From NCBI GenBank assembly GCA_950295325.1, contig OX485803.1, positions 22,198,001 through 22,262,000 of the forward strand: 64,000 bases of DNA, written 5' to 3'. This DNA is from Polytrichum commune (Eukaryota; Streptophyta; Polytrichopsida; Polytrichales; Polytrichaceae). The translations under genes were made by a program, and so were the position numbers. Shown one piece after another: positions 10,050 through 63,861 of this stretch; the stretch's first letter is position 1; the number at the start of each line of letters is the position of its first letter. The notes beneath the pieces are model-generated. The model made no database searches, was not told where the DNA came from, and saw nothing but the letters and a program-made list of their open reading frames with translations.

Positions 10050-10058
10050 TATAGTTAC

Positions 10059-10094
<36 letters not shown>

Positions 10095-37996: not shown

Positions 37997-40567
37997 TTGA
38001 GTTCACCAATTTAGTATAAGGTGTTATTTATTATTTTGACATATTACAAATGTTTGGACAATTACACCCGTGCAAAATAAATGAGTGTTGAACAATACAA
38101 AATGGGTATGACGACACGTCATAACCACATGTTGTACACGTTGACAACTTGCCATAATTATCAAAATAACCATGTGGAATCCAAAGCCACGTCATGGCCT
38201 TGGAGACAATTCATGGGAGGTTAGAAAATAGGCGTAGAGCATCCAAAGCCACATCATGGCCCTTTACCAACTAATTGATATTTATAAAATAGTTAGTAGT
38301 TCACAATAGCTATGAGGGAACAAGGGGGTCTTACGTGCCAACTCGGAGGCGTTTCACTAAAGTTAGCTCCATCCGAGCTTCTTGGTGGATTCATCCGATT
38401 TTTGTTACCGAATGATTTTACTTGAGTGCCACGAATCCCCAGCCCCAAAGTTGTATGCAAATAATGTTTGGACATTAATGGCTGATGAGGTGGGGCCCCT
38501 CTTCTCTTTGAGGATTTTTTGTAAACAGAAGTCTGTGTTGGTGAGCATCAGCAGCAAAAGAATGTAATATTTTCACGTCATGGAAGTATATCATTGGCCT
38601 TTCCTGGAAAAGACTTCTAACTTTGATAACTTTTCCATGCAGCACTGCTGGGCAAGCAATTCGCAATTGCACCGGCATCTCAAGGTAAGGAAATTTATCT
38701 AACTTGAATCTCTAATGTTCAAAACCATTGGAGTTTTTGGAGTTATCCGCAAAGTTTCTCAAAGACAGATCAAACCACTGATCGGGGAGATCCGGCAGCT
38801 AGTTGTAAATTAGCCGAGTGAAATTGCAAAATTACCGATGTTTTTTGGGAGATTCGGCCGTATAACTGAGTTAAATATGAAGAGTATAGGAAATCAACCG
38901 ACCAATATGAGATAATGTAGGAAATTTAACCCCTTAGGCTCAGAAAATGGCGGAAATGAGTTGGGTCTCCCGAGGGTATAGGTGGATATTGGTTGGTCTC
39001 CCGAGGGTATGGGCGGATATTGAATGAGGGAGGTTCTCAGCCGTGTAGGTCACAGGAAACTTAACGATGCTTTTGCTTCATTATTGCATTTCATTGTTGA
39101 CGGCTAGCGTTTAGAATGTATTATGAGTGTGTCTATGGAAGATCTTTGTGATGATCTTGATAATGTACTAATGGAAGCCATAGCTTTATGAAGGAACTCT
39201 ACAAAGTTTAGATGGTTGTTTTCACATCCACAAAGATACCTTTCAGGGCGTTATCCTCTTGAAGGTGAAGATGATATTGTTGATTTTGACTCTAACAGTT
39301 GGTGAATTTTATTTTTGTATATAGTATGGTATGTTAGGTTACTCTTTTATCATGTTGTGGCCTCAAATCTAATATGAGGTTTTAAGACCTAGGTATGATA
39401 GAAGAGTTTATCCATGGCCATCAACCGGTTGATGGCTTATTTTAGGTTCAACTCCTGCTACGGATAAATTGTTGATCATTCTTGTTGGATGTTGATATCA
39501 TTACATATTATTGTTGTATGCTGATATGTTCTTTGGACATTGTTGTTGAATGGTGTATGTTGTTTGTAGATATAATTGGAAAACCAACTTACTTATCAAT
39601 GCCCGAGTTTTTGGCCGGTTGTCATTACAATGAAGAGGAAATTAACTGGCATTTGAAAGAAAATATAGGATATTGGCCGATCCAAATTAATGACAACAAG
39701 TTTGCAACCGATCAAATCCTAAAAAAACCGGTAGAAATTATGAAGGGACGGATTTTAGCTGGTTGAGCTCAAAAATCTCCCGAACCCTAGATCAAACTAG
39801 GAGTTTGGTCCTTTTTTGAGAAACTTTTTTCTATAAGAAGCTTGTTAGAGCATCTTGTGTCAAATTCTAATTTTAAAAGGTGGGTTGAAATCATAATCCC
39901 CCTCTTTCAATCCCAAAAACTCAGAGAAGTTTAGAATTTAAAAATAGGGTCTGACACATGGGACCCAAGACCTTCAATCCCAACTTGACTAGCTCAAATT
40001 GATCCTACTATGACAAGCTCAAATGTTGGTTTTCTTTTTATAGCTCAGCCCCACTCTTTTAGGATATTCATTTAAGCTTAAGAAAACTCAGGTGACTTTG
40101 TGCCAACCTCATTCATATTTTAGCCAACTCACCTGGAGTTTGATTTGGAGACCTTACGGATAACTTTATGATATAAGGTAAGTGGGGCCTCAAACGACAT
40201 TTTTAGTTCAACACCCACTTCTACTTTGATATTAAACACGCAATTAGGAAAGATGAGTAGTAGATCCAAATCGAGGTTGTAGCCATTTCCCTCATAGTTT
40301 CCAGAGTTTGTATGAATATCTTATTTATTGTCAAAGTGAGGATAGTTTTCCTACTAAATGATCAGATAGGTCCCCCCAATTAGGTGAAGTATAGAGTTAG
40401 AATGGTCAACAAAATTTGAGCCACATAATCCTGTGCTTACTCTATTTATCCAAAATACAACCGGCATCGGCAAATTTAATTGACAATGCTTGCCAATTGA
40501 AAAATGATGTTTTGTGATCCTTAGAAGTTTAGCATAGTTTTAGATTGGTGGGTGAACTCATTTCTAA
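37997..40567. other. 2.57-kb segment present only in copy 2, with nested hAT-like element
   Basis: Copy 1 joins TATTTAATT to ACTGACAACGCATCAG (about 11,125-11,140), while copy 2 has 2.57 kb between the two anchors. About 1.0 kb of it is hAT-like element B (38,776-39,789). The remainder (37,997-38,767 and 39,798-40,567) is AT-rich and without recognisable genes or clear terminal repeats. Confidence 0.65.
38776..39789. mobile_element. hAT-like non-autonomous element B (1,014 bp)
   Basis: The 8-bp target duplication GATCAAAC lies at 38,768-38,775 and 39,790-39,797. Left end CACTGATCGGGGAGATCCGG, right end (reverse complement) TAGGGTTCGGGAGAT, so the TIR is short and imperfect as in element A (4005-5025). 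The interior from about 39,060 onward is highly similar to element A from 4,258, including both small ORFs. The first ORF carries a stop and the second is open to 39,766. Confidence 0.85.
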
Positions 40568-41997: not shown

Positions 41998-42851
41998 CAC
42001 GGGGAAAGTTAGTATGCGAGCGGCGATTTGGAGAGCGGAGAACTCCATTTGAGACATGAATTGAGAGGGGAAATGCACCTATAACCGTGAGATTATGGGT
42101 TTAGGGTAGAGCTATTTTTAGAAAATTTTATGAGTTAGGGTCTCTATTACCGTGGAAATAGAACAACATTTCCCCATTTGAAACGTTTACATATTTTTGA
42201 AACATATATATATTATAATAAAATACAAAATTAGGGCTTACATCACTATTACGTCATAAATACAATTACCAAACTTGTGTACTATAGTACATATCACTGT
42301 AAATCAAATAAAAATTACTATATGAAGGAAACACGAAGGAGGTATGTGAAAAGAATTCCCCACATATAGTCCACTATATTTATGTTACACCTATAAATGT
42401 TAACCCTTTGTAATTGTTAACTTTATTCTACTCCCCACATATTGCACACTTTTAAATTTGACTCTATATATGTTAACGAATGAAATGCAACCATAACTAC
42501 TCTTTGGAAATACTACGTTTGGCTACGTTTAGTTCTAGTGACGGAAGTGTAAGAATGGAGGCACATGAGAACTTCCATTAGAAGGTACATGGAAACACGT
42601 TCATGTGGGTGTCCAAGTATGTGGGTTTGTTGGTGCAAATTGAGAAATATTTGCAAGTTGTGCATGCCCATGATTCATACTTCACCCATGATTTCTAAAC
42701 TTCATATTGAATAAAGTTTTGATTGGGTTTGCAATTTTATGAATGGTATTCTCTCACAAGGACTCTTAAAAAATGCTTATATTTATAAATGTTAAGATTT
42801 GTATATTGGTCGATAAAACAATTTTATAATTGGTAACTGTTAACACCTTAA
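41998..42851. other. Unique AT-rich spacer before the CACTA element
   Basis: This runs from the end of duplication homology to the CACTA terminus. No ORF or repeat family is recognised. It begins CACGGGGAAAG at the same place where copy 1 begins a possible MITE, so both copies diverge at one breakpoint. The last three bases TAA (42,849-42,851) would be the 3-bp target duplication of the CACTA element. Confidence 0.6.
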
Positions 42852-42869
42852 CACTACAAGAAAACCAGC

Positions 42870-43720
42870 CCAATGTGACTAGGTTTTATGACTACAATAC
42901 AGCATAAACCAAAATGTGACTAGCACTGTTTGTAGTCATTTTGAGTTAGTCGCTTCGGACAATCTGACTAGGGGTCATATCGGACACTTCTTGTTCCCAA
43001 TGTTGCGTTCCCACAGTGTTTTGGGACCTCAAAACGGGACCTGCAGTGAGACTTGGACCATATGACTCTATATAGTCATACCTCTATGACTATATGTAGT
43101 CATCTATATGCAAATAGGGTCTGTTTGGCATGACTATGTGTAGTGAGGTATGTGTCAATACATGACTAGTTCCATCACTACGCATAGTAGTAAAATGGTG
43201 ACTGTTTGTAGTCATACATTGAGTTGGGAGCATACGACTCTTTGAAGTCACATCTATTTGACACCCCATAGTCACAAATGTTGAAATAGCTTCGTGGTGA
43301 TATGACAAATTGTAGTGAGGTATCAGTCAATACATGACTGGTTTTATCACTACGAACAGTAGTGAGATGATGACTGAAATGCGTCATAAATTGAGTTGGG
43401 ATAATAAGACTCTTTGAAGTCGCATCTATTGGACTACACATAGTCACGAATACTGAAATGACTTCTGAATGCTATGACTAATTGTAGTGAAATATTGGTC
43501 TCCAGTACTGAAATCATGAGATGGGCATGACTAATTATAGTGAGGGTTTAGAGAATATAGCAATGGTTTGATCACTATGCATAGTGATTTGATTGTGACT
43601 GTATTACATCATACACACCTGAGAGAATACGACACTGTAAAGTCAAATGTGCGTCACTACACATAGTCACCCATATCATCTGATGACTGCATGGAGTCCT
43701 TGTATACTCGTTTCTTTCAC
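42870..43720. promoter_or_regulatory. Subterminal transposase-binding motif array
   Basis: At least ten imperfect inverted motifs of the form (A/G)TGACT-N6-AGTCA(T/C) occur within 850 bp, for example ATGACT-ATATGT-AGTCAT, ATGACT-CTATAT-AGTCAT, GTGACT-GTTTGT-AGTCAT and ACGACT-CTTTGA-AGTCAC. En/Spm elements carry analogous subterminal TNPA sites in direct and inverted order. The spacing of exactly six bases between half sites is seen repeatedly. The binding role is inferred from position and arrangement. Confidence 0.75.
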
Positions 43721-44006
43721 TACTGGGAGTCAAAGTTCAATATTAAATCGGAAGCATCTGTCTAGGACTTGATTGTCCTTAGTTTAGTGCAAACGTATGC
43801 CATGCAGTCGAATCTGCCATTCTTACGGTGCATAGTCATAGATTTTAGTTTCAGATTAGTGGGATAATGAGACATCAAGACTATTACAAGTCAACCGTGC
43901 GGTTGTGAGCACTGCGTCAGGTCATGCAAATGATTTGAACACATTTCATTGAAAGAGAAAATTTCATAGCTGAAACATGATGCTCTGCAACTGGAACTCC
44001 ATCACT

Positions 44007-47000
44007 CTAAACTGCTTGGGAGAAGGACATATCAATGTCCATGAACTCTGTGGGCCACATTATAAAGTGCCCTACTGCTTGTCCTACCAAGGTCACGGGT
44101 GGATCATCTAGATCTATGGGTGCAAACAAACTGTAGTCATCATCTAGGCTTTTCAACACTTCTACAGACACACATCCTGCAATTATGGTTCTCCCGTGTA
44201 GAGAAGCACCAGCTACATTCTGCACTTTCCCGAGTGCCACAACTTTATCCTCCTCCCCTTCTTGAATTCCCTTGAGTCTCACATGGTCACCCTTCTTGAA
44301 CTCCGGGTCCTCACCTTCTTCTGCAACCTATAATAATAATAACAACACAAAACAAGCATCAGTTGGGACTCAATTGCTGTTTTCATACAACGATGTACAT
44401 CTCCAAGGCTCATGGGAATTATTCAAATGCTATGACTGTGAGAAGACACATATGCTAACGTCATTACTAATATCAGTCACGTATTCTAACTTCATGACTG
44501 AATCTAATCAAGCCTGGTCGCTCGTTCCATACTACAAGTCTACAAACAATCACGAACTTGCCATACTGAATTTCTAAAGACCTAAGGCACAACATTCCAG
44601 GAAGTGGCACATGGCACTTACATGTTCACTTATCTGTACGTTCAAGTTTTTGGAAAGGATCACAGGGTCACCCTTCTTTAAATCCGGGTCCTCGGTTTCT
44701 TGTACAACCTATAAAAAAAACACACACACAAAACATGGATCAGTTGGGATTGAATCACTGAATAGGTGCTTTCAGAAAAAGAAACCTGTGAAAATACATG
44801 GCTTGTGTGCACTTACATCTTCACTTACCGCTGCGTTCATGTTTCTCTTCCTCTTCCCTTTCGCGTTTTGCTGACTGTCAATGTTGGCCTCCTTGCTCTT
44901 CTCAGGTTGAGTTTTGCTCCCCCGGACTGCCCTTTGCTTCTTTGTGTCATCGTGATCTTTCTTCAGCTTCTCAACCTCTGTCAATCGCATTCTCTTCTGG
45001 GTGCGAGTGTCCTCTTTTGCAGGCTTCGAAGCCCTCAAATTCCGAGTTGAGTACACAATTGGGGCACGTCCTCCTGACTCTGCCACGGTCACTGCACCAC
45101 AATCCGGAGTGCCTCCTGTAGGGTTGCTCGAAGTTCCCGACGGATGTGAGTCTTTCACGTCACCTACTGCAGGAATCTCCTCTGCCTTCTCCGGATCTGC
45201 CGGCTGCGATTCGCACTCCCCTACTTGCTGCAAACCCAGTTGATTACAAAGTATAAGGATCCACTCAGTCATTGCTTTTGATCAAGAGCAATGTTTGTAA
45301 ATGGGTTCAACAAAGCCTCACCTTCTTGTGAATTCCAGTCACTTATTTGAATTCAATGACAATGGATAGTAATACATATTAAACTGATGACTGTGAGAAG
45401 TCACATATTCTAGCTTCATTACTATTATCCATCACGAATTTGATGTTCATGACTGCATCTAGTAAAGCCTGGTCACTGTTTCCATATCAATGACTACAAA
45501 CAGTAACGAACTTGGCATGGTGAATTCTTCTAGAACTAAGGCACAAGATTTTAAGAAGTGCCCAAGCAGGAGCTGTAACAACAGGAGCTGGACAACACAC
45601 ATGAAGTCATGTTTGTACCTGCAGTGGCATCAAGCTTTCTTGGACCTGATCTGGCTTTCGTGAAGTGTCGGTGCCGGTGGACTCTGAGCTGGAGCTGCCT
45701 TTTGCACTTGCTGCCTTCATGGGGGTGACAACGGGAATCTGCAGGTGCTGCATGATGCGTTCAATGTTCTTCTCCATCGCTCTCCGCCAATCACTGTCCT
45801 GCTCTGGCTTTGCATCAGACACTCGGCTACTCGGGGAGGTTTCACTTCTAGGAATGAGTCTTCGAGGGGCATCTTTGTCGCGTGCAAGCTCCCTTTCAAT
45901 TTCAACCCTAGTTGGGCTTCTCTCCAGCTTAATGGCCTGCACAGAGATCTTACATCATATAGTTAGTGCTGCATGATTACAAAATCTTAGATTCTCTATG
46001 ACCCAAAAAAGTCACGCAAACTCTGGTGATGACTGATGACAGTCACATACTCTAATTTGATGACTGCACCTAGCCACATCATGACTTGGTTTTCGCATTG
46101 GAACAGTTGTACAGCCTTTGAGATCATCTTCAACCTTATCTGCCTATTGCAAATATTTCTAATAGGGTAGTTGTATTGTGGCAATTGCCATTGAGTACTC
46201 AAAGAGTATCGCTTATATTACGAGGCTTCATTCATAAGAGGAGGTTGTTTCTATTCCCAGGTTGAAAGTTATCATATATTATGCTGCATGTGAGTCTCCA
46301 ATATAGAGTGGATACGGATGTTTTGCAAGTTGTGAGGTTGGAGTTGTAATGGACTGAAGACTTACCAATTGAGCTCGAACATATTCTTCGTTGCGCCCGG
46401 CTGAAGATGGCCTCCTCACTTGGGCTCGGCTGTATCGCAACTTCTCTGCTTCCTGTTGTTTTTTCTCCTCCAAGATGAGTTTTGACAACTTCACCCAATG
46501 GTCATGCCGAATGTGCTTTGGCTTGTCCTTCCCTTCTTGCATTCTTTTCTTCAACTGATATCTCTTCACCTTCAGTTGGCCCTTCAATATGCTGTGGAAA
46601 GCCTCTTCTGTCACCTTGCCAAGGCCCCCATGGTACTCAAAAGTGTTGTCCACTCGTTCCTTGACAGCGAGCAGCATCGAAGTGTTGAGATTCTTGTAGT
46701 TATCTTCGCTGAAATCTATATCCTGCGCATGACCTCGAAGACATGTTAGCCACAGCGGACGATTCTGTCCTTGTGGATGTCCTCTCAGATCGACCTCCAC
46801 AAGGTGTTTTCTGGGCCCTCCAGCATCTCGAAAAGTGACCTCCTGAGCCTGTTGTTGCTTCAAAGCGACCCGTCGTCTGGACTTTTGGTCTCTGGAATAT
46901 GAGGGTTGACCTAAGCTCTCAGTCATCTCCGATGGGGAATACGTGGACGAGTTCACCACAGGCTCCTGCATCTCCATCGCTCGCCTCCATTGCAGTAGTT

Positions 47001-50000
47001 GGAGTTGTTTTTCTGCAATTTGAAGGTCCAAGCTGCTAATGGGGCCGTGGCGGGGGAGGCCTCGGCCACGCGAAGGAGGTGTGTTGCCTCCCTGAACACG
47101 AGGAAGCTCGGGTACTACGTCATTGCAGTAATCGAAGGGCTCCCCTGTTAGTGAATCCTCTGACATCTTAAGGGGTTTGTCGTGTTGGGGTCGGTCTGTT
47201 TGCGGCGGACGGAGGCTCGTTGACGTGGGTTTTGGAATTCCACAACCTCCACGACCTCGCTTGCGCACCTCCCAAACAGTTGGCTCGGTTGTCTGAGCTC
47301 TGGCCTGCACAGTGCATACAGAGGTCATCAATCTCAATGTCAAGGTTAGTCGTTCTCTCAGTTCATGTGACTAGAACCAGTCACAAATCCTCAACGCATA
47401 CGAAGTTTGTTAGTCATCTATTTAGTTCATGTGACTAGGATCAGTGCCGATATGACTGAATCTGGCTCAAGCAAGATTCATTCTAAAATTGATTCATTCT
47501 AACATCTGCTTGCAGGGCAGAAATTCGTCTTGGGCTAATCGAAGCAATAAGCAGTTCAAGTGTTGGGCTTATGATTGTTGCAACAAAATTGGAACTATTG
47601 ATGAAACTTAAACAGCTATCCCTCTGTCTCTTAAGATTGAAAAATTGAAATCTGATGTTCTAAACTTGAATGGAAATGCTTACCAAAACTCAAAGATCAG
47701 CCCAAATCGATGATGGGGATGTACTGGACAAAACTTAAAGCGATTAGCTTGAGACCAATCCCAATTTCAAGAGGCACGGGCACTTCGAACCTCAAGGATG
47801 TTTCAAAGGATGCTACCTAAGCAACCCACCACAACAATTCCCAAGAATCGAGAAGACCCCAAAACAATATGCTAGGGCTGCTTATGTATCTAGCAAGATA
47901 ACTTACATTAGTCAGAAAATACAAGGTCAACAAGCCAGCAGTCCACACTAATTTAGTCTCTGAGCGATGATCCTACCACTGGTATCTATGACCTCCATAA
48001 TCCAACCCAGCCATGTCCAGAAAAAATTCTGCTCTCTTTCAGCCAGTAAGGACAGCCAGACCCACCCCGAAACTACATGGCTGACTCTTGATACAATATA
48101 GCTAGTTGCCTATTTCCTCCTAACAAGTCACAAAATTCCTTCTGATGCAGTCATAATCTACATTCAATGTAACTCCAGTTGAGCATTCCTTTGCTGCTGC
48201 TGCTACACCGTTGTCTTATTTTTGCAGACACTAAAATTGCTCAAATTCCATTATGTCTGATGCAAGTTTCTTAATCGCAATAGTACTTTATTTGGTCTAT
48301 GATATTGAATTTATATTTAGTACAGCCTATTAGAAAAGGAACGAGAAGATAAAAGTCAACTGTGATTGATATCTTGCACATATTTGGTTTTCAGTCTAGG
48401 TCATTTGTATGAGCTCAAAACTCCCTATAATTCATGTTACATTTATGTATAATCTGATTGGAAAAGTGCATAAGCTAAATGGCTATTTTCAAAATTGGTA
48501 TCTTTTGACCCATCGCGAAAAAAATCAGGAATTAAACCCCTCTGTTGACATCTACAATATTTTTTTTCACTTCAGAAAAGGCCCTCCAAAAACCGAATCA
48601 ATTTCAACAGGCCAGACAAGCTCCCAAAAGTAGGGAAAAACGTTTCAGGCTCTTGATTCTCCTCCACCTCCCAGATACGAGCATTTACTTCCATTCCAAA
48701 AATAAATTTACATACTGAACTCCCTAGCCCCTGAAGATATTTGCTCCCGATATTACAACCTTTCCCACCATAGCCCCATCCTTTGAAATCCAGATTTGAC
48801 TTGACATAAATCTCCACCACTGTTCGGGGAGGTGTTGGGCACAATTGGTCGAGATCCAGGTGTTTCCAAGTCCAGCCGATTGCATGTAGATATCATTCAG
48901 TTCTCTTTTTGAGTTTTAGATATAATCAATTATAGTTTCCATTAAATGTTGAGTGAATTTCCTAAAGTTCAGAGGCTTGAACCGGCCATTTCTCAAACTC
49001 GACCGGCCCATATGTAACTAACAGTTGATCAGAATCCATTGACACGCCCTGGCAATGTGCATATAATACTATTAAGACACAGACTTCGAACTCCAACCAT
49101 TCAGAACACATCATGAAAATTGAGTTGCAACATGTGAATTTGGGACGGTTTGAAGACAGTTCGGCTCTGCTACTCTTAATCAATCCTCTTCCAACATACG
49201 AACGAGGTTGCATAGGGGACATTCCAACACGAATGGCAGATTGCCAGTGCACAGCTCCAAGTGACAAAAATTGCCTCTCTGTGACATCTCTCTTTCACTA
49301 CACTACTGGGGTCAAGCTACAAAGATAGAAAGAAAGGCTCCAGATCAATGAACTCCTTGGCAGAAAGTCATATTTACTTAGAGGATAACTCTATTGTGAA
49401 GGGTTACAATGAATTCATATATAATCATTGTCTTAACAACGACTATAGTTGATAAATATAGCTGATACTCTATGTTTACCTATGTTGCAACATCAAGCTC
49501 TATGGCTTGTGGGCATTGACTTCAGCTTCACACTATTTCCCACATTCAATAATTATGGAATTCTTCAGCAAGAGGTAGAATATAGGGGAATTCAGTAGCA
49601 TTAGTTTGTGAGATGGAGACCTAAATTGAATAACAGAGTTCATTCTGATCACGTGTGATTGCACTTACTGAGCTCATGTTCTCATCATCATGTTTAAGCC
49701 ACCAAGATTTTATGAGTAAGGGTTTATGGCAGAAATTGGTTTACAGTTTGATAGGAAATAATACTCTCATCCTACATCTTCCTCTACGCATGTACTACTT
49801 CAGTGGGTTGGTAGATTGTTTGGGAATATGGCACTGAATTCGAGACCAATGACAATACAGTCCACCCTCTACACTCGTGAGGCTTCTGAAAATCCACCTT
49901 GAAAGTGACTGAACAGATGACGAAACATTTTTTTAATGGAGACAAGCTCGAGAATTATAATATCTTCTGATGTCTATAAGAACATGTTAGCATCCAGATG

Positions 50001-51285
50001 TGTGCAGACAATTATTCATTATCCCTGTTCACATGACTACGACCAGTCACAAATCTGAAACACATACGGTTTTAAACAGTCAACTTTTTAGTTCATGTGA
50101 CTAGTACCAGTCACACATCCTAAACAATGACGATGGTTGATAGTCATCTATTTAGTTCATGTTACTGAACTCAATCATGGCCATTGATAAACTGATGACA
50201 AGCACTCATCGAGCCTACGGAGATAAACTATTCGTTTACCATAATATGGCTTGCATGAAAATCTAATACTGTGCCACCACAGATGAAAGGACTCACATCT
50301 GGAAAAAACCCAATATGAAGTTAGTACACTCACCTGAGGATTTTGGACGCCTCGATGGGGCTTTCCCACTCCTACTGGCGAGACCTCATCATCGCCATGT
50401 CCACGCTCAGCAACATTCAGGATGTCAGTGTCGCTCTCCGAAACCTCCTCTTCACTGTGCCATTCCTCGGAGCTGCTCTTCCCGCTCCGAGCGCCCTCCT
50501 TCGATTCCTTCGACAACACCCTCTTCTCCTTCCTCCTTTCACACCGCGACGGTATTCCAGAACTTGGGTGCGGTTTGCCGAGTCGCGAACTCCGGCGCAC
50601 GATCTCCGACCCCTCGTTGCAGTTCTCTCTGCAGTTCAAGCAAGCATCAAGTTAGTCCCCAGCGAAAGCAAGGTCAGTGAGGGTACTTGCTTTCAAAGGA
50701 TCCAAGGGGCGAAAACAAGCTCTCAGCGGGTATTTGCTTAAGTTAGTGAGGGCGAAAGCAAGGTCAGTGAGGGAACTTACTTTCAAAGGATCCAAGTGGC
50801 GAAAACAAGGGCTCAGCGGGTATTTGCTTAAGTTAGTGAGGGCGAAAGCAAGGTCAGTGAGGGTATTTTCTTAAGTTACCAAAGGATGCGCAACAAGGTC
50901 AATGAGGGTAGCTGGTGACAATAAATAGAGGAGGCTGGCAATTTCGGCGAAGGAGGTAGGGTTTAGGGTTTCAGTACCCTAAACTGTTGTTTTTGCGGTA
51001 ACCTCGACTGCTGGGTACCAAGGCTGCTTGCCTCGTGTTAGCAGCTGCCGTTGCCGTCAAGGATGCTGCCAGAAGGGGGACTCCAAGCTGTTGTAGCCTA
51101 AGGGCGTTTTTCTGTAAGTTCTCCTGCCGCAGCTGCTCGTACTCAGCTACTTCGGCGTCCGCGATGTTACCAAACCCTTCCTCCAAAACCTGCTCCTTAG
51201 ATCGCTCCAAACCCCGGAGGCCTGAGTTGGTGTCGTCCTCTTCACTCGCCGAGGGCGCTTCAGCGGCGTTCGAGGGCGTCTCCAT
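44007..51285 (-). CDS. TNPA-like CACTA protein (Transposase_24/DUF8039-type), multi-exon
   Basis: Exons with matching phases: 50628-50334 (donor CAG|GTGAGT), 47304-46366, 45936-45619, 45227-44829, 44708-44622, 44327-44007 (TAA-side stop at 44,007). The last five give 687 aa without a stop. A first exon from ATG 51,285 encodes the plant-transposon motif EYEQLRQENLQKNALRLQQLGV; its donor is unresolved. Exon 2 has RRSSRLGKPHPSSG (basic linker). Exon 3 has a WLTCLRGHAQDIDFSEDNY-VDNTFEYHGGLG-HWVKLSKL region like Transposase_24. The last exon has the DUF8039-like fold pattern (KKGDHVRLKG, VALGKV, VGHFIMWP). Such proteins bind subterminal repeats in En/Spm. The gene is divergent from TNPD; an intron of about 3 kb (47,305-50,333) contains a nested repeat. 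Confidence 0.8.
44240..44790 (-). repeat. Tandem duplication of a small TNPA exon
   Basis: Exon 44708-44622 and the start of exon 44327-44007 encode related peptides (VVQETEDPDLKKGDPV and VAEEGEDPEFKKGDHV). The flanking intron is also duplicated: GCATCAGTTGGGACT near 44,356 against GGATCAGTTGGGATT near 44,737, each beside a CCTATAA(T/A)AA acceptor. The unit is about 390 bp. The reading frame is preserved, so the protein carries an extra partial copy of this motif. Confidence 0.8.
48836..49020 (+). repeat. Dispersed repeat nested in the TNPA intron
   Basis: The stretch matches 1,290-1,500 and 28,309-28,520 of the segmental duplication: GTCGAGATCC, GTGTTTCCAA and CCAGCCG are followed by GATATCATTC and later by AACCGGCCATTTCTCAAACT. 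The copies are diverged. This shows that a repeat family of the flanking DNA also sits within the CACTA element. Confidence 0.65.
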
Positions 51286-51470
51286 CGCTCGAGCGTGCAG
51301 GAGCAGTGAGGCGTGGGAGGCATTCGAGCACACTCGGCATCGCCATTTTGAAATCCAGGTAGGAGCCGTTGCCAACCTCAATCCCTGAACTTAATGCTTG
51401 TTATATCTGAGAGTAGCTCCACTACACTTAAATGCCGCCAATAACTTTCCGGCTGTTAGGGTTTAGGGAT
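51003..51470 (-). repeat. Promoter/first-exon module, copy 1
   Basis: The first TNPA exon (ATG 51,285) with about 190 bp upstream is repeated at 53,320-53,755, about 2,285 bp away in the same orientation. Both encode METP(S/T)NA..AP.A.EED and the EYE.LRQ.NL.KNAL.LQ.LGVP motif. This copy continues into GYRKNNSLGY and a stop if unspliced. Differences are mostly third-position or conservative, which suggests that both were under selection for coding at some time. Confidence 0.75.
51455..51468 (-). promoter_or_regulatory. Telo-box upstream of TNPA first exon
   Basis: GTTAGGGTTTAGGG (AAACCCTAA on the coding strand) lies about 170 bp upstream of ATG 51,285; a longer GGGTTTAGGGTTTAGGGTTT run is at 51,728-51,747. 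Telo-boxes are known promoter elements of many plant housekeeping genes. The equivalent motif sits the same distance upstream of the duplicated exon (53,740-53,753). Confidence 0.6.
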
Positions 51471-52122
51471 CTGTAACGAGCGTGGTAGGGTTGGAACTGT
51501 CATCCATTCTAAGTTAGTGAGTCGCTCAAGCTGCTTTACAGTCGTTGCTCAAAGCTGTTCAAGAGATTTCAAGTTGTTCAAGAGATTCGTCACTGAGGTT
51601 AGTCATAAGAATGGTTTAGGTGTCGACTGTCAGTCACAAGATCTCATTGTATAGCGAGTTAAGTAGTCAGCATCTTGATTCGTGTGACTGAATGCAGTGA
51701 CAATGTTTAAACATTGATCAAACTCCAGGGTTTAGGGTTTAGGGTTTCTAGTGTGATTGAGGTGCAGGTCTGGATGATTTTCCCTAAAACCCTAATATTG
51801 ATTGAATGACGCTACATTTATTCTGGGAAGTTTGCTCATCAAGAGCATGACATATTGCAATATTTCTTGTACCCCTTGGGTTTAGCTATGGTTTTCGAAA
51901 ATTTCAATCCACTGGGGTGATGGTCAACTGCGTTTATTTGATTGTCATTTAGGTCCAGAACTCTTAAGTTAGGGTTTGGTTGAAGTATGTTAACAGCAGA
52001 CTGTGAATGTGAAGCACAAATGACTTTGGTGGTGGACCTGGTTGTTTTTACAGGCTGCAAATTTGTTTGCTTTCTCCTTTCACCAAGAGTATGCTAACAT
52101 TCCTTTTCTTGCGTTTTTGCAG

Positions 52123-52264
52123 GTTAAAGACTTCTACAGGACATATTTAGGTTTGCCAGTGGACCTAGTTGGAGATTATAAGCCAAGAACTTTAAGTTTC
52201 AAAACTGAAACATGTAGTGTTTCATGTTGGAAGATGGGTTACTTGGGGACTTCGGCACAGGGAG
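52123..52264 (+). other. Exon-like segment of unknown origin
   Basis: Acceptor TTTTTGCAG precedes VKDFYRTYLGLPVDLVGDY..., and a strong donor GGGAG|GTAAGTG follows; the frame is open across 47 codons and the other two frames are blocked. It lies between the TNPA first-exon copies and upstream of the captured HflX exons, on the same strand as HflX. It could be an exon of a third captured gene or an upstream exon. The family is not recognised. Confidence 0.4.
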
Positions 52265-53151
52265 GTAAGTGCAGTGTGATTTACTGAACCCAGGATCCAA
52301 GTTGACAATGTGGCTAAATGTGTGGATCCTTACATTGTAATAGCAGTAATTTCTTTCCCAATCAAATTTGCAGCAATAAGAAAGCAGCCCACACCAGATA
52401 CCCTCACTACCCTTGTGATGAGTAGAAGATGATGTTTGAATCTGTGTATGGATCCGCTTGGCTGAACTGTGACTCACTAAATTGTAAACGATATTGTTTC
52501 TGAATGCTTGGCTTTTGGGTAAGGTAGATACATGGCCATATTATGGGCACTTCCACCTCAACAGCCAAATTTTTGCTATTGAACAGATTAATCTGGTCAG
52601 GAATTGCTAACAACAACATTACCATTTCAGAATCATGGTTTCACAAGATGAGTGTTACATTATAGGTGTCCTACGAAGAAGAGTGATCGCACAAGGCCCA
52701 CTTGCCTTAGTTTGGTTACCTTTCAAAGTTTCTATCTTTCTTTCTGCCAAGCACTTGATTTACTTAAGCATTTGATGATTCTTTCTATTACACCCTAAAC
52801 CCTATACCAGCCATGTATAGGTGTCCAATGAAGGAGAGTGACCACGTAAGCCTCACGTACCTTAGTTACCTGTCAACAATGACTGGTGTCCATAAGTTTT
52901 GATTTGTTTGATAACTTGCAATGGTAGTCAGTCTTAATTGGCCTGTTAAATATTATGAAAACTAGATGTGGGTACTTGTTTTCATAGTTGTGATGAAGTC
53001 TAATCTCGAATAACATACATTGAGGAGTACCAGGATGGTGTACATCGCAATATTTGTGAAAATCTGAATCTGGGTCTATAAGGTGGTTGCACATAGGTCA
53101 AGAACCAAAGTTTTGAGTATGTATTGCATGTGGGTGCAGGCAACGCCTGAT

Positions 53152-53755
53152 GCCATCCTGACATTGACCTCAAAAGCGTCATTGACAACTACCATCAGTA
53201 TCACTGCTCCCATCTCTGTGTCAAATGTCCAACTAACTATTTTGGATTCTGAGATCGCGGCGGCGCGGCGGGTGCTCTTCACGGTCGCATGATTCCCCTC
53301 TCCTGTTGCCGCTTCGGTCGTGCATGTGGTTGTTGACTCTTTCAACGATGCTGCCATAATGGGGACTCCAAGCTCCTGTAGCTTGAGGGCGTTCTTCCGT
53401 AAGTTCGCCTGCCGCAGCCTCTCGTACTCGGGCACTTCGGCATCCTCGTCTCTCCCAAACCCTTCCTCCGATGCCTGGTCCTCAGATCCTTCCGAACCCC
53501 GGTCCTTGGAGTTGGTGTTGTCCTCTTCAGTTGCCGAAGGCGCTGCAACGGCGTTCGTGGGCGTCTCCATCGCCATAGCAAGCAGGATCACTGAGGCGTG
53601 GGAGGCATTCGAGCGCCCTTGCCATCGCCATTTTGAAAATCAGGTGAGAGCCGTTGCCAGCGTCAATTTGTGAACTTAATGCTGCTTAGATCAGAGAGTA
53701 GCACCACTACGTTTGAACGCCGCCAGTAAGTAGGCTGCTTTTAGGGTTTAGGGAT
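53152..53755 (-). pseudogene. Duplicate TNPA first exon with promoter, copy 2
   Basis: ATG at 53,570 opens METPTNAVAAPSATEED and the motif EYERLRQANLRKNALKLQE, paralogous to the exon at 51,285. After the shared part the frame runs on to 53,076 with unrelated residues, and no convincing donor joins it to a downstream exon. A telo-box (53,740-53,753) sits upstream as in copy 1. It may be an alternative first exon of the TNPA gene or a non-functional duplicate. Confidence 0.55.
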
Positions 53756-53986
53756 CTGTAACGAAGTCGCAACTATCATCCATTCTAGTCACATTAAGGT
53801 GAAGATCTAATTGCTACTCTCTAGGCTGCTTTAGGGGTTTAGGGTTTAGCTATGGTGAGAGCCGTTTGAAGTTGTTTCAAGTGCCCGGAACTATTTGTGT
53901 TCTACAATCCAAGTTGGGCTATATCCATTGATTTAGGACCCTGTTCTTTGAGCAACTCTAAATGACTTGAAATTCTTGTGCATCAG

Positions 53987-56713
53987 GTTGAACTTGCTGC
54001 TCTAGACTATCAGAAAACACGATTGGTTCGTGTTATGGGCAAGGGAGGAAGACTAAGATTTGGTCAAGATGGGGAAGCTGAAGTGGTCAGTGCACGAGGG
54101 TATTATTTTCTCTCTGTAAATCAATGTTAATTGAGAACAGTGAGTGGTTGTGCTAATAATAAGAGAGTCCAGAGGGTTCAGACTGTTCAACCAGAGGGAT
54201 GTTAGCACATGTAAAGGTATTCATGAATAGCTTGGCCATAACATGCTGATGTATTTTTTGAGATCCACCCTTATTCAATGTGCTTCAATTTACTATTTCC
54301 TTCGGAAGTTATGTTTTCTTTGAACCAACTCATGGTCAAGTTCACACAGTGGTCAGGAAGTATCAGATGTAGACCTTGTTGCAATTTAGAATAACATGCA
54401 ACACTTCTGGTATAGTGATGGCGACATTGAGCCTGTTGGTGCAGTCAGCAGCAGTGTGGAGATTCATGCCATTTATTGAGGGCACATGTATTTGGGATTA
54501 TTTTGCAGGGAAAATCATCTATGGTGGCTGCATTATCCCAAAGCGATGTCTATGTTGATGATAGGTACTATCTTGCCCTTAGTATTAGTGCCTCCTTTTC
54601 AGAATCTATACAATGAAGTAACACTAAATGATTCAAATAAAGGAAGTCAAATAGAGAAAAAACCCCTACTAACATCAGTGCCCCACTAGCCATGTATTGT
54701 TCATGGGTTTCCCCATGCTACAATATAAGATGAAATGCCTTTGCTTTTGAGTATGCTCAAGTTAACTATACGTTTTACTTGTGTGTACCCATCTAATATT
54801 TGACATGCATAACAGATGCTAAACTACAGTCCTGAGCATCTTTTGGCACTGATTTGATGGACCTCTCTATGTTTTGTTTTTCATTGGAAATATTTTATGT
54901 TATTCTACCTTCTTTCAACTTTTTTCATTGAAGTGCAACTCTTGAACCTCACTGATGAGGTGGAGGGTGTTGCAGATTATTTGCAACACTTGATTCTCGT
55001 GTGCGAAGTGTGGTCTTGCCTTCAGGGTAATAAGTCCCATCATCCTCATACCCCAAAACCATCTTCTTACTTAATCCGTGGACCCCAAATATTCCTGTTA
55101 CAACAGTACATGCATGTGAAATCAATGCATTTATCGATGTTTCTGGATGTAGATCATTGCCTTGGACACTTGGGTGGTAGCAGACAAAAGTGGACTAAGA
55201 AAGTGATTGTCACCTCTTGCAATTGCAGGCAAAAAATACTGCTAAGCGACACAGTTGGTTTCATATCTGACCTACCTCACCAGGTTAGTTTGATTCTTGG
55301 GTATGTTAACACAGTTCTTGGTGCATGTCATGTCAGCGGACTTACAAAGTCTTCATGCAATTCTTGTTGGTTGGCTTACCACTATGCACCGTAGTTCTTT
55401 GTTCATATGGTATTTGCATTTGATGGTGTACATAAATTGACAAGATTCAGAGTCCTTAACTTTGTCAGCACCAGGGGTGTGTTTGTATGCGATGTGTGAC
55501 AATTACTACAAAACCCCCAAGAAGTATTGAAGTGATATTTAATTTGGTCTAACATATTGAATTAATATTAAGCACAACCTTTAAAAAAGAGGAAGTAAAA
55601 ATAAAGTCAATTGTGACAACGGTCACTAGGTATTCCGAAGTAGGTGAGGAGGTATGCTCCAGCTGAAGAGTGTTATAGTGGCATTATATTTTCTGGCTTA
55701 TGTTTCAAAGCCCTATTTGCAGCTGGTGGAGGCTTTTCAAGCAACGTTAGAAGAGGTTGTTGAAGCCGATTTTTTGCTGGTGAGTCTGCAACATATATCT
55801 CTCTGCAAAACTTACAATTGTTTGTATTGTGATGATCAAAACTTTCATTTAGTATTGCAAAAGAAAATAACTCTCTTAATTATATGTCCGTCCCCTTTTC
55901 CAGCATGTTATTGATAGCAGTGCCCCAAATGCGGATGAGCAGCGGGAGGTGGTGTTAAAAGTCCTTCGAGAAATTGGTGTACCACAAGCTAAACTGGACA
56001 CCTGCATGGTGGAAGCCTGGAACAAGGTATTTCATGTTTCTGAGTTGATATTATGGAACCCCATGATTTCTTGCCCAGAGAGGATGGATGGTCCACACCT
56101 AATTGATGACTCACACAGGAGAATTTGTGACCTCTCCGTGACTATGAGGCAGTTCAAATCAACAATGATGAGGGAAATGAATTTGTTTGCATACAACACT
56201 GGAAGGTCGTTCTTGTGATTCATTTGTAGCAAATAGTGAAATGAAACTGCTATGCATCACCTATTATCAAGATGAACAGGATTAGTCAATTGGAGTTTCA
56301 TGTATGTTGTTGAAATGAATTGTTTGTCGATCAACTTCTCTGGAACCAAGCTCTATGTATACTTTTTGGTTATCAAGGTTGCTTCCATGTATATGTGTTA
56401 TTTCAGTGAGGTTGTCCTACATCAACTTTGTGATCAACATAGATTGTAATGTGACTTTTTGGTGGGTAGTGATAGCTTGTTGTCTTGCAACGTTATTCTT
56501 TTTGATACCCACAAAAAGTAACTTGAAAGGAGTTTGATGAAGATTTCATGTCATCCAGTGTAAAGAGAGAATACGCAACTAGTATGAACATGCTAAAAGT
56601 GTTTAGGGGTTGAGCTTGATAATTGACACAAAGTTGGTGATGGACTTCACACAGGTGGATCTCCTGGAAGATACCTCGGAGGACATCAACACACTCATGC
56701 TGGATGAGCCACG
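53987..56713 (+). pseudogene. Captured HflX-type GTPase exons (internally deleted)
   Basis: Seven exons between GT/AG sites: 53987-54099 (VELAALDYQKTRLVRV), 54509-54564 (GKSSMVAALSQSDVYVDD, second half of the P-loop), 54976-55026 (LFATLDSRVRSVVLPSG), 55229-55283 (LLSDTVGFISDLP, G3), 55723-55779 (LVEAFQATLEEVVEADFLL), 55904-56026 (ends AWNK) and 56655-about 56713 (VDLL, completing the NKxD motif). Junction phases agree from the second exon onward. Missing are the Gly-rich GAGETELQLQRRR region and the GYTNA half of the P-loop between the first two exons, plus the C-terminus. HflX proteins are ribosome-associated GTPases; plant forms act in organelles. The gene sits inside the CACTA element, same strand as TNPD, and is inferred to be non-functional. 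Confidence 0.88.
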
Positions 56714-56862
56714 TACGTTCTGGCCAAATGACCCCCCTGACGAAAATCAATTATTCAATAGTCTAGCAATTATTCAAAAAGTTTTGGTGTGTGTTGACTA
56801 GGAATTTCTGTTCTCATATTTGTGTTCCACTCACACACATTTGTTATCTTATTGTGCACCAG

Positions 56863-57191
56863 GGGGATTTGGCCATTTTAAATAAAAAGTGTTTTAGGGA
56901 GGTTGTAGAACGATGTCGCGCAGAGAGAAGAGCGTTAGAAAGCCAAGGCATCTACATGGATAACAAGGTAAAGCTCAAATGGTCTTGTATACCTGTATAT
57001 ATGATATTTTTGTGGTTCTTTTAGATCTGCTCAATTAACAACTAACCCTGAAGACTTTGCTTAGACATGTATACCTTCTATCAAAAATCTAATGTAGTGA
57101 TATTTGGATCCTTGAACAGATTTTGCACATTTCTGATGTTGAAATTAAGGAAACAAAGCTGCTTGGCAACTCACCCATCATCATTGTTTCT
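56863..57191 (+). pseudogene. Captured Tim44 exons (C-terminal domain fragment)
   Basis: Two exons follow HflX on the same strand: 56863-56967 (GDLAILNKKCFREVVERCRA ... GIYMDNK, 35 codons, acceptor CACCAG, donor AAG|GTAAAG) and 57120-57191 (ILHISDVEIKETKLLGNSP ... VS, 24 codons, donor TCT|GTGAGA). They join in phase and match the conserved C-terminal domain of plant TIM44, the matrix-side subunit that tethers mtHsp70 to the TIM23 import channel. The preceding and following Tim44 exons (for example the Q-V-x-C-V-R-D block) were not found, so this is a fragment. Identification rests on remembered family signatures. Confidence 0.82.
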
Positions 57192-59235: not shown

Positions 59236-62200
59236 ATGGCTAGGCGTGGAGCGACGGGGGCAAGCGACCTCCACCTCTGGGAACTAGAGGAGAGAGAGGC
59301 AGATAGATTGGGGCTAACGCATTACCGTTGCCCATGCAGGAACTGTATGGGAGGTCGTTGCATCAGTAGGGGAACCATTCGCAAGCATCTCAGAACCATC
59401 GGAAGAGACCCTCAATTCACTGTGCCTATTTTGGTATGTCTACATAACTACTAGGAGAACAGCTGTAATATGACTAGAACAGTTCAATATGGCATGGCCA
59501 ACATTACTGGTTTTTATTAGAATTTGTGACTAGGTCTAGTCACATATGACTGATTCTAATCAAGGTTGACTGTCATAAGTAACATCCCACCAAAACTAGT
59601 CATGCATTCTCACTAAATCCAGTCATATCGGACACGCAATCAGGTAATGTTCCAGTGCTAAAATACTTTCAACTATTAATTCCGGGGTGTGCTATGTTCA
59701 GGCTGGACTCGTGGATGCGGAACAGGACCTTGTTGAAGAGGAAGTTAGGGAAAGCCCTCATCAGCTGGACAACAACAATGGGGGCATGGACGCAATAAGA
59801 ATGATCATGGAGTGCCTCTCTAGATACGATAACCTCGAGGACGAAGACCGTGAGGATTGTAGAAGAACAGACGATGTGGAGGAGGACGACGCAATCCCCG
59901 GGGAGGAAGGGGATTGCACGGCAGATTTAATGGAGGAATTACTTGCGCATGCCCGAACTCCCCTCTTTGCAGGTGCCACAACAAGTCGCTTGGTCGCAAC
60001 TCTGCTGCTCCTCAATTGCTTTGCGGTGTTTGGAGTATCGAATGCATTTGCTGATGAACTACTTCAACTGCTGCATATTCTCCTTCCAAGCGACAATTAC
60101 CTACCCCGTTCCCACTATGAAGCCCGGAAGTATGTGGTGAAGCTGGGACTGTCCTATAACAACATTCATGCATGCCGCAATGGATGTTGCCTATTCAGGA
60201 AGGAGTTGCAGGATGCGAAGTCCTGTCCAAAGTGCAACGCCCCGAGATACAAGTCGGAGTCCAGCCCAATCCCATCCAAAATCCTACGCCACTTTCCGTT
60301 GATTCCCCGTCTGAAGCGCATGTACCGGTGCAAAAGATTGGCGGAACTTAACAAATGGCATGCCAATCATAAGAAGGAGGGTATTAACGTGGAATGCGTC
60401 CCCGACTCGAAGGCCTGGAAGCATATTGATTCGTTGGATGCCAACTTTACAGATGAGCATAGGAACATACGCTTGGGGATGGCATTGGACGGTGTGAATC
60501 CGTTCGGAAACCAGTCGCTCAGTCACTCGACATGGCCGGTCCTTCTGGTGAACTATAATTTGCCTGCATGGCTAGTGACAAAGCCATTTTTCATCATGCT
60601 TGCATTGCTTATTCCAGGTATTGCTTACACTCAGCACTGATGACTGCATCTAGTAACCAGCATGGTAAGAAGGTTGACTGTGAATAGTGCAATTTCTGAA
60701 ACCAGTCACCGGTTCCAGTATCTACACTCAGAATTGTTGACTGCATCTAGTAACGAGCATGGTAAGAAGGTTTACTATAATTTGTCTGCATGACTAGTGA
60801 CAAAGCCATTTTTCATCATGCTTGCATTGCTTATTCCAGGTCGCGAGAGCGTGACCTCGGAGAACATCGATGTGTACCTTACTCCATTGATTGAAGAGCT
60901 CTTGGAACTTTGGAAAGGGGTACCAGCCATAGATGTGTCTGAAGAGCCCCCAAGACAGCATTTAAAACTACGGGCTCTACTTCTTTGGTGCATTCACGAC
61001 TTCCCTGCGTACGGACTCACATCTGGCCAAGTCACAAAAGGGTATAGAGCGTGTACCGAGTGTGGGCCAGATGTTACAACTCGGCGGTCAAAGGCTCTCA
61101 GAAAGAATGTATATTTAGGTCACCGCCGGTATCTCAGTAGATGGCATCCATATCGTAGGCTCAGGCATTCATTTGATGGTCAACAGGAGTACCGACCTCC
61201 CCCTCCAATTCTAACAGGATGCGACATCAAGGGCTATGCACAAGAAAGATTGTCCTTCCTGCAAGAGTCACAGGGAAGAAGAGGTGGAGGAGAAGGCGAC
61301 CCCATTCAGCGTACCGGAGTGAAGCGGCTCTCCGCTCTGTACAAGCTTCCGTATTGGCAGGTACTTAGCGCATTCACAGGTTCCAGTAACTGACATTTAG
61401 AATTGTTGACTGAATCTAGTAACAAACACGCTTATCTGGTTGAATGTGAATAGTGCAATTTCTGAAATCAATCACTGGTTCCAGTAACTGATAGTTAGAA
61501 TTGTTGACTGACTCTAGTAACAAACACGGTTAGCAGGTTGAATGTGAATAGTGCAATTTTTGAAATCAATCACTGGTTCCAGTATGTTCAGTTATAATTG
61601 TTGACTGACTCTAGTAACCTGGTTGGTAAGAAGAGTGACTGTGAATAGTGCAATTTCTGAAATCCATGACTGCCAGTATGGATGAAACAAAATATGGACC
61701 TATATCTTTTCAATGAATGCTTAAGAGTCTTTGTCGAAAGTGAGTAAATCTGACGCTGGAATGCTTTGCTGGGATTTCTGGCAGGACCTCCTCATTAGAC
61801 ATCTTTTGGATCCCATGCACTGCGAAAAAAACATCTGCGAGAACGTGATGAAAACAATTTGGGGAGTCCGTGACACTTTGAAGGCCCGGCTAGACTTAAA
61901 AGAGGCCAACATTCGACCATATCTGCACCCTCTTCCAGGAAGGAAACATGGGTCTGTCGTACTTCCAACAGCTCCATATGTACTATCGAAAGAAGAGAAG
62001 GCAAAATTCATAGACATTATCCGCAATTTGAAGACTCCTACGAACTACGCTGGCCAACTTGCAAAATGCATTGCGTCGGATGGGGACTTGAAGGGGCTGA
62101 AATCTCATGACTACCATGTCTTGATGCAACAATTGCTCCCCTTGTGTTTGCGCACTCTCTTAGACAGGGATACGCGGGTGGCAATAATACGGCTTAGCCG

Positions 62201-63861
62201 GGTGTTTGTACGATTGTGCGCAAAATCCGTAGATCCCTCGTCCATGGAACAGTTATTGGAGTACACAGCTGAGACTCTATGCATGCTAGAGATGGTTTTT
62301 CCACCTTCATTCTTTGATGTCATGTCGCACCTCCCCATTCACCTGGTGCAGCAGTTGGATATATGTGGTCCCGTACACACCCGATGGATGTATCCTATTG
62401 AGCGGTACTTGAAGAGACTGAAGGGCTATGTTAGGCAACGAGCAAAACCTGAGGGATCCATGGCGAGGGGGTACACAATAGAGGAGGCGTTAGGATTTTG
62501 CACAGAGTACATGCAAGACTGTGAGCTAACACGCAGGAGGACTTGGGACGACGAGGAGGAAGTAGGGGCCAAGAGTGAGGTCGCGGAGGGTACAGGTCGA
62601 TATCAACTCTTGACATCAGAGCTGAGGACACGGATTCACGAGTTTGTTCTCACGAATGCTGAGCCTCTACAGTCATACAGAGAGTAAGCATCACATGTTT
62701 TAGTCATGCACTCTGTCTAGAAGGGACAATGTGACTCTATAGTCAACAAAGGTCTATTGCGTATTAATTCCAGTCATCATATTGCAACACATGACTAACA
62801 GATAGTAAGCATCACATGTTTTAGTCATGCACTCTGTCTAGAAGGGACAATGTGACTCTATAGTCAACAAAGGTCTATTGTGTACTAATTTCAGTCATCA
62901 TATTGCAACACATGACTAGGGAATTAGATGTTGATGACGTTTACATTTATCTGCCGGCTGTTTTTGTTATGTAAAAAAATTCCATCCACTGTGGCTTCCA
63001 ATCAGACGTCACTACTTGGAGATGGAAGCGCGGCACAGAATGCGTGCAGAGATACGTCGTCGATCACGGGGCAGAAGAGCAGAGTATCCAGCAATCGCAA
63101 GGAATGAGCAGTTTTCTGAGTGGCTTCCAATCGCGGTGCAACGGGATGTGGCAGCAGGCACAGAGGTCCATGAAGATATTCTTGGCCTTGTCCTACCACC
63201 TTCATGCGAGGCAAAATCGTATCGCAGCATGTATGCATACGGGAACCATATACGTGTGCGAGGAGCAGAGGGCCACTTGTCAACGTGCGACAGCGGAGTA
63301 GCTGCAACATTCTCACAATCTTGCCGTTCCAGCAGAAAGGACAAGAATCACAGGCTTGCGAACGTGGAGTACGTGGGGTGGGTTGAAGAGATTATTGGGG
63401 CTGACTATGGGAAGTTCGAAATACTCCTACTGTATTGCAAGTGGGTCCGCGCCACGTGGATTGGGCCACGGGCAACTATGAAAAGAGATGAGTACGGTTT
63501 CACTCTCGTGAACATTGACCGTACCATTCCGTACTCATCAGATTCGTTTGCGTTTCCTCTTCATGCTCAACAGGTCTTCTTTGTTGACGATGTGGCACAT
63601 CCTGGATGGAAGGTAGTTCTACGCAAAGAGGCACGAAGTGTGAGAGTGACTTCCATGGCTGAAGGAAGACCAGATCTACACTGCCTAAGCTTATGCGACG
63701 ATGTTGTAACTCAGGGATTGATGGCACATCATGTCGCTGATGATACCGTAGCAATGCCACCTGTTTTATCAAGTTCCAGGGAGCTTTCTAGCAACGAGGT
63801 GCAGCTTGCTATGCAAATGGAGGATACAGAGGCAGACTACAATGATGAATCACCACAGTAG
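59236..63861 (+). CDS. TNPD-type CACTA transposase (Transposase_21), 5 exons, 1,129 aa
   Basis: Exons 59236-59433, 59702-60617, 60840-61360, 61785-62683, 63006-63861 join in phase without a stop. The N-terminus (CPCRNCMGGRC ... HLRTIG) is a transposase-associated zinc-binding-like region. Next come GCCLFRKEL...CPKCNAPRYK, then DGVNPFGNQSLSHSTWPVLL (D329), HDFPAYG (D425), LPYWQ|DLLIRHLLDPMHCEKN (D554), a DUF4218-like region (about 703-815; HLVQQLDICGPVHTRWMYPI) and the C-terminal YGKFEILLLYCKWV / AQQVFFVDDVAHPGWKVV typical of the family. The protein would cut the CACTA ends. D329, D425 and D554/E559 are candidate catalytic acids (inference). Introns are built from tandem repeats (see repeats). 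No lesion is visible, so it may be active. Confidence 0.92.
59526..59543. promoter_or_regulatory. Perfect GTGACT-N6-AGTCAC motif in TNPD intron 1
   Basis: This is one of the exact matches to the motif; others are at 47,367-47,384 and 50,097-50,114, with one-mismatch forms at 50,033-50,050, 51,684-51,701 and 58,339-58,356. It matches the subterminal array and may be a TNPA site inside the gene. Confidence 0.65.
60552..60839 (+). repeat. 222-bp tandem duplication that equals TNPD intron 2
   Basis: The exon-2 end (60,552-60,617: ACTATAATTTG...CTTATTCCAG) is repeated at 60,774-60,839 with a shift of 222 bp. The first CCAG|GTATTG serves as donor and the second CCAG|GTCGCG as acceptor, so the intron (60,618-60,839) is exactly one repeat period. 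The intron also contains two 97-bp units starting CACTCAG at 60,628 and 60,725. Confidence 0.88.
61379..61672 (+). repeat. Three 98-bp tandem units in TNPD intron 3
   Basis: Units start with GGTTCCAGTA at 61,379, 61,477 and 61,575 and share GAATTGTTGACTGA(A/C)TCTAG and GTGAATAGTGCAATTT. The same unit type forms the core of intron 2. The third unit carries TGGTAAGAAG, a donor-like sequence. Confidence 0.9.
62684..62925 (+). repeat. Two 121-bp tandem units in TNPD intron 4
   Basis: The unit GTAAGCATCACATGTTTTAG... starts at 62,684 (the actual 5' splice site) and again at 62,805. Copies are almost identical, so the second unit carries a decoy donor GTAAGC. Confidence 0.9.

Follow-up and report, generated by a model that had tools for sequence, protein, structure and literature searches.

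The stretch of Polytrichum commune DNA analysed here (the window; 64,000 nucleotides, C1:22198001-22262000, C numbers denoting contigs) contains, but for its last 805 bp, a transposable element of the CACTA type, hereafter element E, in which pieces of an HflX GTPase gene and a Tim44 gene lie in tandem beside fragments of further host loci. Genome comparisons covered 64 contigs (407.8 Mb). The final 805 bp of the element, with the right 28-bp terminal inverted repeat (TIR) and the right TAA, lie past the window end in the adjoining stretch L009, and position 64805 is given in window numbering carried on into L009. The element and its own coding features are listed below, where T1 is a related element elsewhere in the genome.

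42849-42851, no strand: left target-site duplication (TSD), TAA, matching the right TAA directly after 64805
42852-64805, plus strand: element E, 21,954 bp, ends set by aligning four genomic copies
42852-42879, plus strand: left TIR, 28 bp, starting CACTACAAGAAAA
44007-47370, minus strand: left-half open frames, one of 363 aa at 46279-47370 and the rest shorter, 98.8% identical to T1
59648-63861, plus strand: TNP2 transposase gene, from open frames with Pfam domains
59648-60637 and 60794-61390, plus strand: Transposase_21 frames of the TNP2 gene (PF02992, E-values 4.8e-27 and 5.3e-41)
61725-62684, plus strand: DUF4218 frame of the TNP2 gene (Pfam)
62938-63858, plus strand: DUF4216 frame of the TNP2 gene (Pfam)

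Element E ends in inverted CACTA-type termini and its 28-bp TIRs are perfect. It occurs in four genome copies, at C1:22.24 Mb (the window), C1:56.41 Mb, C5:11.48 Mb and C7:7.34 Mb, and all four are bordered by a perfect 3-bp TSD, one of its own per copy (TAA, GGG, TAG and TTA). With inverted CACTA termini, a 3-bp TSD and a TNP2 transposase, E is a CACTA (En/Spm) element. The four copies differ pairwise by 13-19 substitutions over ~21,950 aligned sites, plus small indels, and this near-identity indicates that the element probably moved recently. The minus-strand frames of the left half gave no Pfam match above the cut-off; they probably represent a second, TNPA-like gene, a label suggested by their position. 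Host gene DNA lies between the TIRs, but because TNP2 domains are present E is not filed as a Pack-CACTA (Pack-TYPE) element. The genome is rich in TNP2-bearing elements of this sort: it holds 643 Transposase_21 candidates, and every one of the 150 that were scored lay above the family cut-off.

A 172-bp tandem pair at 43139-43490, near the left end of E, may be a candidate for subterminal repeats of the kind bound by TNPA in CACTA elements. Between the frames of the TNP2 gene, two further tandem repeats (61374-61672, 98 bp x 3; 62677-62918, 121 bp x 2) are probably intronic.

The HflX and Tim44 fragments

53907-56768, plus strand: HflX fragment, parent at C5:22.09 Mb, minus strand
53987-54099, plus strand: HflX exon a (this and the following exons by comparison with the parent locus)
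54509-54564, plus strand: HflX exon d, starting GKSS (second P-loop half)
54976-55026, plus strand: HflX exon e
55229-55283, plus strand: HflX exon f
55723-55779, plus strand: HflX exon g
55904-56026, plus strand: HflX exon h
56655-56768, plus strand: HflX exon i, cut at the junction, its frame running on to TAG at 56799-56801
56769-56773, plus strand: HflX/Tim44 junction filler, 5 bp, belonging to an 11-bp stretch repeated from its neighbourhood, CAATTATTCAA
56774-57745, plus strand: Tim44 fragment, parent at C5:36.60 Mb, present too in the related elements T1 and T2
56863-56967, plus strand: Tim44 exon 1 of the fragment
57120-57191, plus strand: Tim44 exon 2 of the fragment

A preliminary description had placed seven HflX and two Tim44 exons in sense and in tandem within one CACTA element, and the exons, TIRs, TSD and TNP2 gene were all found. 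The extent that it gave, 53987-57191, holds for the exons, but the element is larger, it lacks two internal HflX exons, and more host fragments are present. All nine exons have AG/GT borders, except where the last HflX exon is cut. When joined with each exon in its parental frame, the HflX peptides match Pfam MMR_HSR1 (E-value 1.8e-12) and the Tim44 peptides match Pfam Tim44 (PF04280, E-value 6e-9); the captured Tim44 is an incomplete C-terminal domain, its two exons covering Pfam positions 38-96 of 147.

A protein search of the genome with the HflX exons returned five loci, namely the four copies of E and C5:22.09 Mb. The latter has exons that are absent from E, and the nine exons modelled there are free of stops up to the stop codon. 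Element E holds three parts of the joined HflX locus, 6208-6551 (100% identity), 7280-8670 (99.2%) and 8974-10114 (99.1%); the first gap between them removes parental exons b and c, and the second is intronic. The captured piece differs from its parent by 16 substitutions in 2,852 aligned bases. Since 15 of these 16 are identical across the four E copies, the remaining one being found in the window copy alone, the HflX capture preceded the spread of E.

Tim44 was found at seven genome loci: the four E copies, T1 (C1:4.73 Mb), T2 (C5:27.72 Mb) and C5:36.60 Mb. The last is the apparent parent, lying outside CACTA elements and running, as judged by eye, into further Tim44 exons; the match with E stops short of these downstream exons. 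There are 10 differences from the parent in 963 ungapped sites (~99% identity). Seven of the ten are identical in T1 and T2; an eighth site differs from the parent in E, T1 and T2, though not in the same way in all three.

Because the introns are kept, HflX and Tim44 were captured at the DNA level, as had been proposed, and the proposal of two unlinked parents is likewise borne out. The parents lie ~14.5 Mb apart on C5 and are therefore not adjacent in this genome, and the similarities, 99-100% at the HflX locus and ~99% at the Tim44 locus, are far beyond chance. For a host HflX-Tim44 tandem invaded by CACTA sequences, or for an artefact of assembly, no support was found, and within this genome either is scarcely conceivable given the distance between the parents, the differing flanks and TSDs of the copies and the existence of elements that hold Tim44 and no HflX. 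Assembly duplication as the origin of the four copies was ruled out by the same distinct flanks and TSDs.

The retained exons do not add up to an intact gene. Deletion of HflX exons b (60 nt) and c (151 nt) removes 211 nt and shifts the reading frame. In the parent, exon c ends GYTNA and exon d starts GKSS, the two halves of the P-loop as given by its consensus; the deletion of exon c cuts this motif in half. Conventional splicing of the E exons gives a product whose frame hits a stop in exon f, fourth among those retained. The final HflX exon lacks a splice donor where it was cut, and read in the parental frame it reaches TAG at 56799-56801. The exon deletion, P-loop loss, frame shift and stop in the last HflX exon rule out the chimeric GTPase-Tim44 protein that had been envisaged, as far as conventional splicing is concerned, and the captured pieces appear to be passengers without a functional chimeric protein by that route. 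One might still read the lower density of exonic differences from the parent (1/569, versus 15/2,283 at non-exonic sites) as a sign of a functional HflX-Tim44 gene being born. This contrast is, however, small and partly due to parental constraint, and with frame and P-loop broken and the last HflX exon running without a donor into a stop under conventional splicing, such a birth is highly improbable.

The captured stretch might instead be transcribed and give rise to small RNAs or antisense effects on parental HflX and Tim44. Such a role would be in keeping with the ~99% identity to the parents, the four copies and the mostly kept splice sites, and fragments within the soybean element Tgm-Express1 are reported to be spliced into transcripts (PMC1947982). 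Against it, both fragments lie in sense, no inverted copy was found when E was compared with the parents, and 2,283 of the 2,852 compared HflX bases are non-exonic. We consider a regulatory effect of this kind improbable.

Further host fragments and related elements

Further donors were sought by DNA comparison of 47450-51050 and 51500-53250 with the genome, followed by base-level alignment, which gave the following fragments.

47892-48149, plus strand: P5, donor C2:39.04 Mb, 94.6%, matched equally well on the small contig C26
48146-48550, minus strand: P6, two collinear pieces, donor C7:10.18 Mb, 93% and 87%
48544-49080, minus strand: P7, two collinear pieces, containing a dispersed repeat, donor C6:40.085 Mb, 91%
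49078-49192, minus strand: P8, donor C5:32.73 Mb, 86%, overlap with the end of an eL22 (ribosomal protein) frame
49339-49857, minus strand: P9, donor C2:58.94 Mb, 88%
51986-52207, minus strand: P1, donor C1:27.485 Mb, 93%, the donor locus frame having a PAM2 motif at the Pfam cut-off
52236-52357, minus strand: P2, donor C4:25.56 Mb, 88.5%
52356-52883, plus strand: P3, in pieces, donor C5:7.516 Mb, 88%, 86% and 78%
52887-53254, plus strand: P4, donor C5:13.72 Mb, 92%

The nine extra donors lie on six large contigs (C1, C2, C4, C5, C6 and C7), and the fragments are ~78-95% identical to their best sources, P3 being weak in its final piece (78%). They form two runs, at 47.9-49.9 and 52.0-53.3 kb, separated by ~2.1 kb that is in part CACTA-type sequence. 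Inside the runs the spacing is 146 bp between P8 and P9, 28 bp between P1 and P2, and 3 bp or less everywhere else. Summed from the fragment coordinates, the host-derived share of E is ~6.9 kb (31%). Judged by these alignments, E carries about 11 host donor fragments, of which HflX and Tim44 are the youngest. Two control stretches of 3.6 kb outside E (window 35500-39100 and L019:1-3600; a small sample, both repeat-rich) gave repeat-family and duplication patterns and no run of abutting single-locus fragments.

The preliminary description had also treated HflX and Tim44 as a meaningful pair of organelle genes. That part does not stand: the ~11 donors are of mixed kinds (eL22 and PAM2 among them), which rules out a special organelle link, and Tim44 and HflX were taken separately. 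The Tim44 piece of T1 and T2 is longer than that of E, and neither element has HflX; Tim44 was therefore acquired first and HflX later, in the line leading to E, and a single joint capture of the two is ruled out. In E, HflX stands where T1 has other DNA. It is flanked on the left by T1-type sequence (53257-53912, plus strand, 97.9-99.2%, including a ~80% alike second copy of 51057-51511) and on the right by Tim44/T1-type sequence. In the line to E it displaced ~2.2 kb of T1-type DNA, with which the left portion of the Tim44 piece was lost, and on the right E lacks ~550 bp that T1 and T2 have.

The T1 stretch replaced by HflX in E (L021:1650-3150) is itself mosaic, some of its pieces recurring on C4, C5 and C7 (98-99%) and others matching C1:41.96 Mb (89-98%).

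A third related element, F, has its left end near C1:7.968 Mb and is ~97-99% identical to E over 42847-51050 and 51500-53254. The P1-P9 mosaic is common to F and E at 98-99%, and no HflX or Tim44 match was found in the F stretch C1:7986501-7996500. The outer left of E (42844-47445) is nearer to T1 (98.8%) than to F (96.8%). From these similarities E appears to combine an F-like inner left with a T1-like right part.

Element F is interrupted by ~10 kb (C1:7976970-7986672) between sequences that are contiguous in E, and its transposase domain has one TAG. Within E, a 450-bp segment of the element occurs twice, at 51057-51511 and 53342-53787; the two copies are ~80% alike and bracket the inner host-fragment run, a possible trace of two element types joining.

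Junctions and the formation of element E

Thirteen junctions were listed, and twelve were counted after P6b-P7a had been dropped for its gapped alignment; only exact shared bases were scored, with filler or gap taken as zero. Seven of the twelve share 2-6 bases, two share a single base, and three have a filler or gap of 2-5 bp. Random joins of these loci would be expected to share 8.5 bases in total, as against the 26 observed (P 0.00004), and to share at least two bases at 2.0 junctions, as against seven (P 0.0015). For the five young junctions taken by themselves, 14 shared bases were counted and 3.6 expected (P 0.0007). In addition, HflX, P3, P6 and P7 are each made of collinear donor pieces with internal deletions.

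The abutting short pieces, above-chance shared bases, templated filler and collinear pieces with deletions point to copying repair with template switches. We regard it as quite likely that E arose by repeated template-switch repair in a transposase-bearing CACTA element, with exchange between subfamilies and then transposition. Host DNA would have been collected repeatedly between the two divergent gene blocks. At each capture, a break or gap inside the element would have been filled from unrelated host loci used as templates, the copying switching from one to the next at short stretches of matching sequence. Subfamilies would also have swapped parts, giving the F-like inner left and T1-like right of E. 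The finished 22-kb element has transposed to at least four sites. Related ideas exist for other systems. The Rubin and Levy mechanism is said to be one of abortive gap repair. It is cited in a study of CACTA elements in Chenopodium (PMC8978399), and gap filling, template switching and short microhomology at breakpoints are described for the formation of metazoan Pack-TIR elements (PMC8277862).

Several points weigh against this account of repeated repair. Three of the twelve junctions have no shared bases, and at the old, diverged junctions the exact overlap varies with where the alignment ends. A Pfam-recognised gene is found in only 4 of 11 donors (HflX, eL22, PAM2 at the cut-off, and Tim44 via the captured piece); no Pfam family at E 0.05 was found for six of the nine donor frames submitted (loci P2, P3, P4, P5 and P9; P6 and P7 were not submitted). 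For the fragments of 78-95% identity, "donor" denotes the best-matching locus of this genome; P5 has two equally good matches, and P7 includes a repeat. The support comes, moreover, from one assembly.

A different route is offered by hybrid-element formation, in which two CACTA copies flanking a host stretch lose their facing ends and move as one; this model was proposed for Arabidopsis Pack-CACTA elements, as described in a review (PMC13317346). E joins sequence of two element types, and the model could explain this F/T1 mixture; the T1-type DNA to the left of HflX, the Tim44/T1-type DNA to its right and the loss of ~2.2 kb of T1 would agree with it. However, separate flanking insertions would be needed at ~11 loci, the runs of near-abutting short pieces, several with internal deletions, are hardly explained, and the shared bases at junctions exceed chance. 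Hybrid formation is therefore an unlikely origin for E, and repeated template-switch repair is preferred.

More tentatively, and with some doubt on our part, E may be viewed as a self-mobile collector, in which the zone between the divergent gene blocks gains fragments over time and these are swapped between subfamilies. If this were true, one genome would keep an ordered record of capture, from ~78% to 99% identity, with parents and intermediates included. Multi-gene capture would then proceed without loss of the transposase, and surveys that skip transposase-bearing elements would miss this class.

Known capture systems and other features of the window

Multi-gene capture by CACTA elements is already known, and E is a rich example of it, not a new protein. 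Among the papers listed by a literature search on HflX or Tim44 with transposons, none dealt with such a capture, which is not proof of its absence from print. Tgm-Express1 is described as a 5.7-kb element with five fragments (PMC1947982, PMC2613891) that are spliced in many ways (PMC1947982). Like E, it encloses fragments of several unrelated host genes, with their exons and introns retained, within CACTA termini (PMC1947982, PMC2613891). Unlike it, as far as these accounts go, E is 22 kb long, carries TNP2 domains, draws on ~11 donors and has four near-identical copies and related elements in the same genome. Expression has been demonstrated for Tgm-Express1, whereas E is known here from its sequence alone.

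E resembles Pack-CACTA and other Pack-TYPE elements in having CACTA ends around host DNA, sometimes from several loci, as in a maize Pack-CACTA (PMC8903248). It differs in its TNP2 domains, and the packFinder survey files transposase-bearing elements as autonomous and not as Pack-TYPE (PMC8903248). On wheat chromosome 3B, 140 CACTA capture events are reported and two CACTA families appear to have exchanged captured DNA (PMC4290129); in Chenopodium, a complete CACTA element has gene fragments upstream of ORF1 (PMC8978399). These cases represent the same process in flowering plants, and nothing near 11 donors is described in the available parts of either report (PMC4290129, PMC8978399). Metazoan Pack-TIR elements share the gap filling and template switching proposed for E; they are from animals, and the available text does not describe many-donor mosaics (PMC8277862).

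Three things set element E apart: how many donors it has, that it keeps its transposase domains, and that the parents and intermediates occur in one genome together with the product. How captures arise in cut-and-paste transposons is hard to infer from end products alone. Here, the junctions and the succession of events can be read directly because the parents, the Tim44-only elements, the element with the older mosaic and the four final copies are found together in one assembly, and E provides a case of capture inside an element that keeps its transposase domains.

Elsewhere in the window, no RNA family matched at the gathering threshold. The stretch 35500-39100 is 100% identical over 3,601 bp to C1:22123428-22127028, ~110 kb off, and is either a segment that was duplicated very recently or a duplicate in the assembly. 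Adjoining minus-strand frames at 13885-19567 encode a protein kinase, an NB-ARC domain and an extended region of leucine-rich repeats. That region is a tandem array with a unit of 144 bp, ~15 copies and 91% matches, and these values suggest that the array expanded recently.

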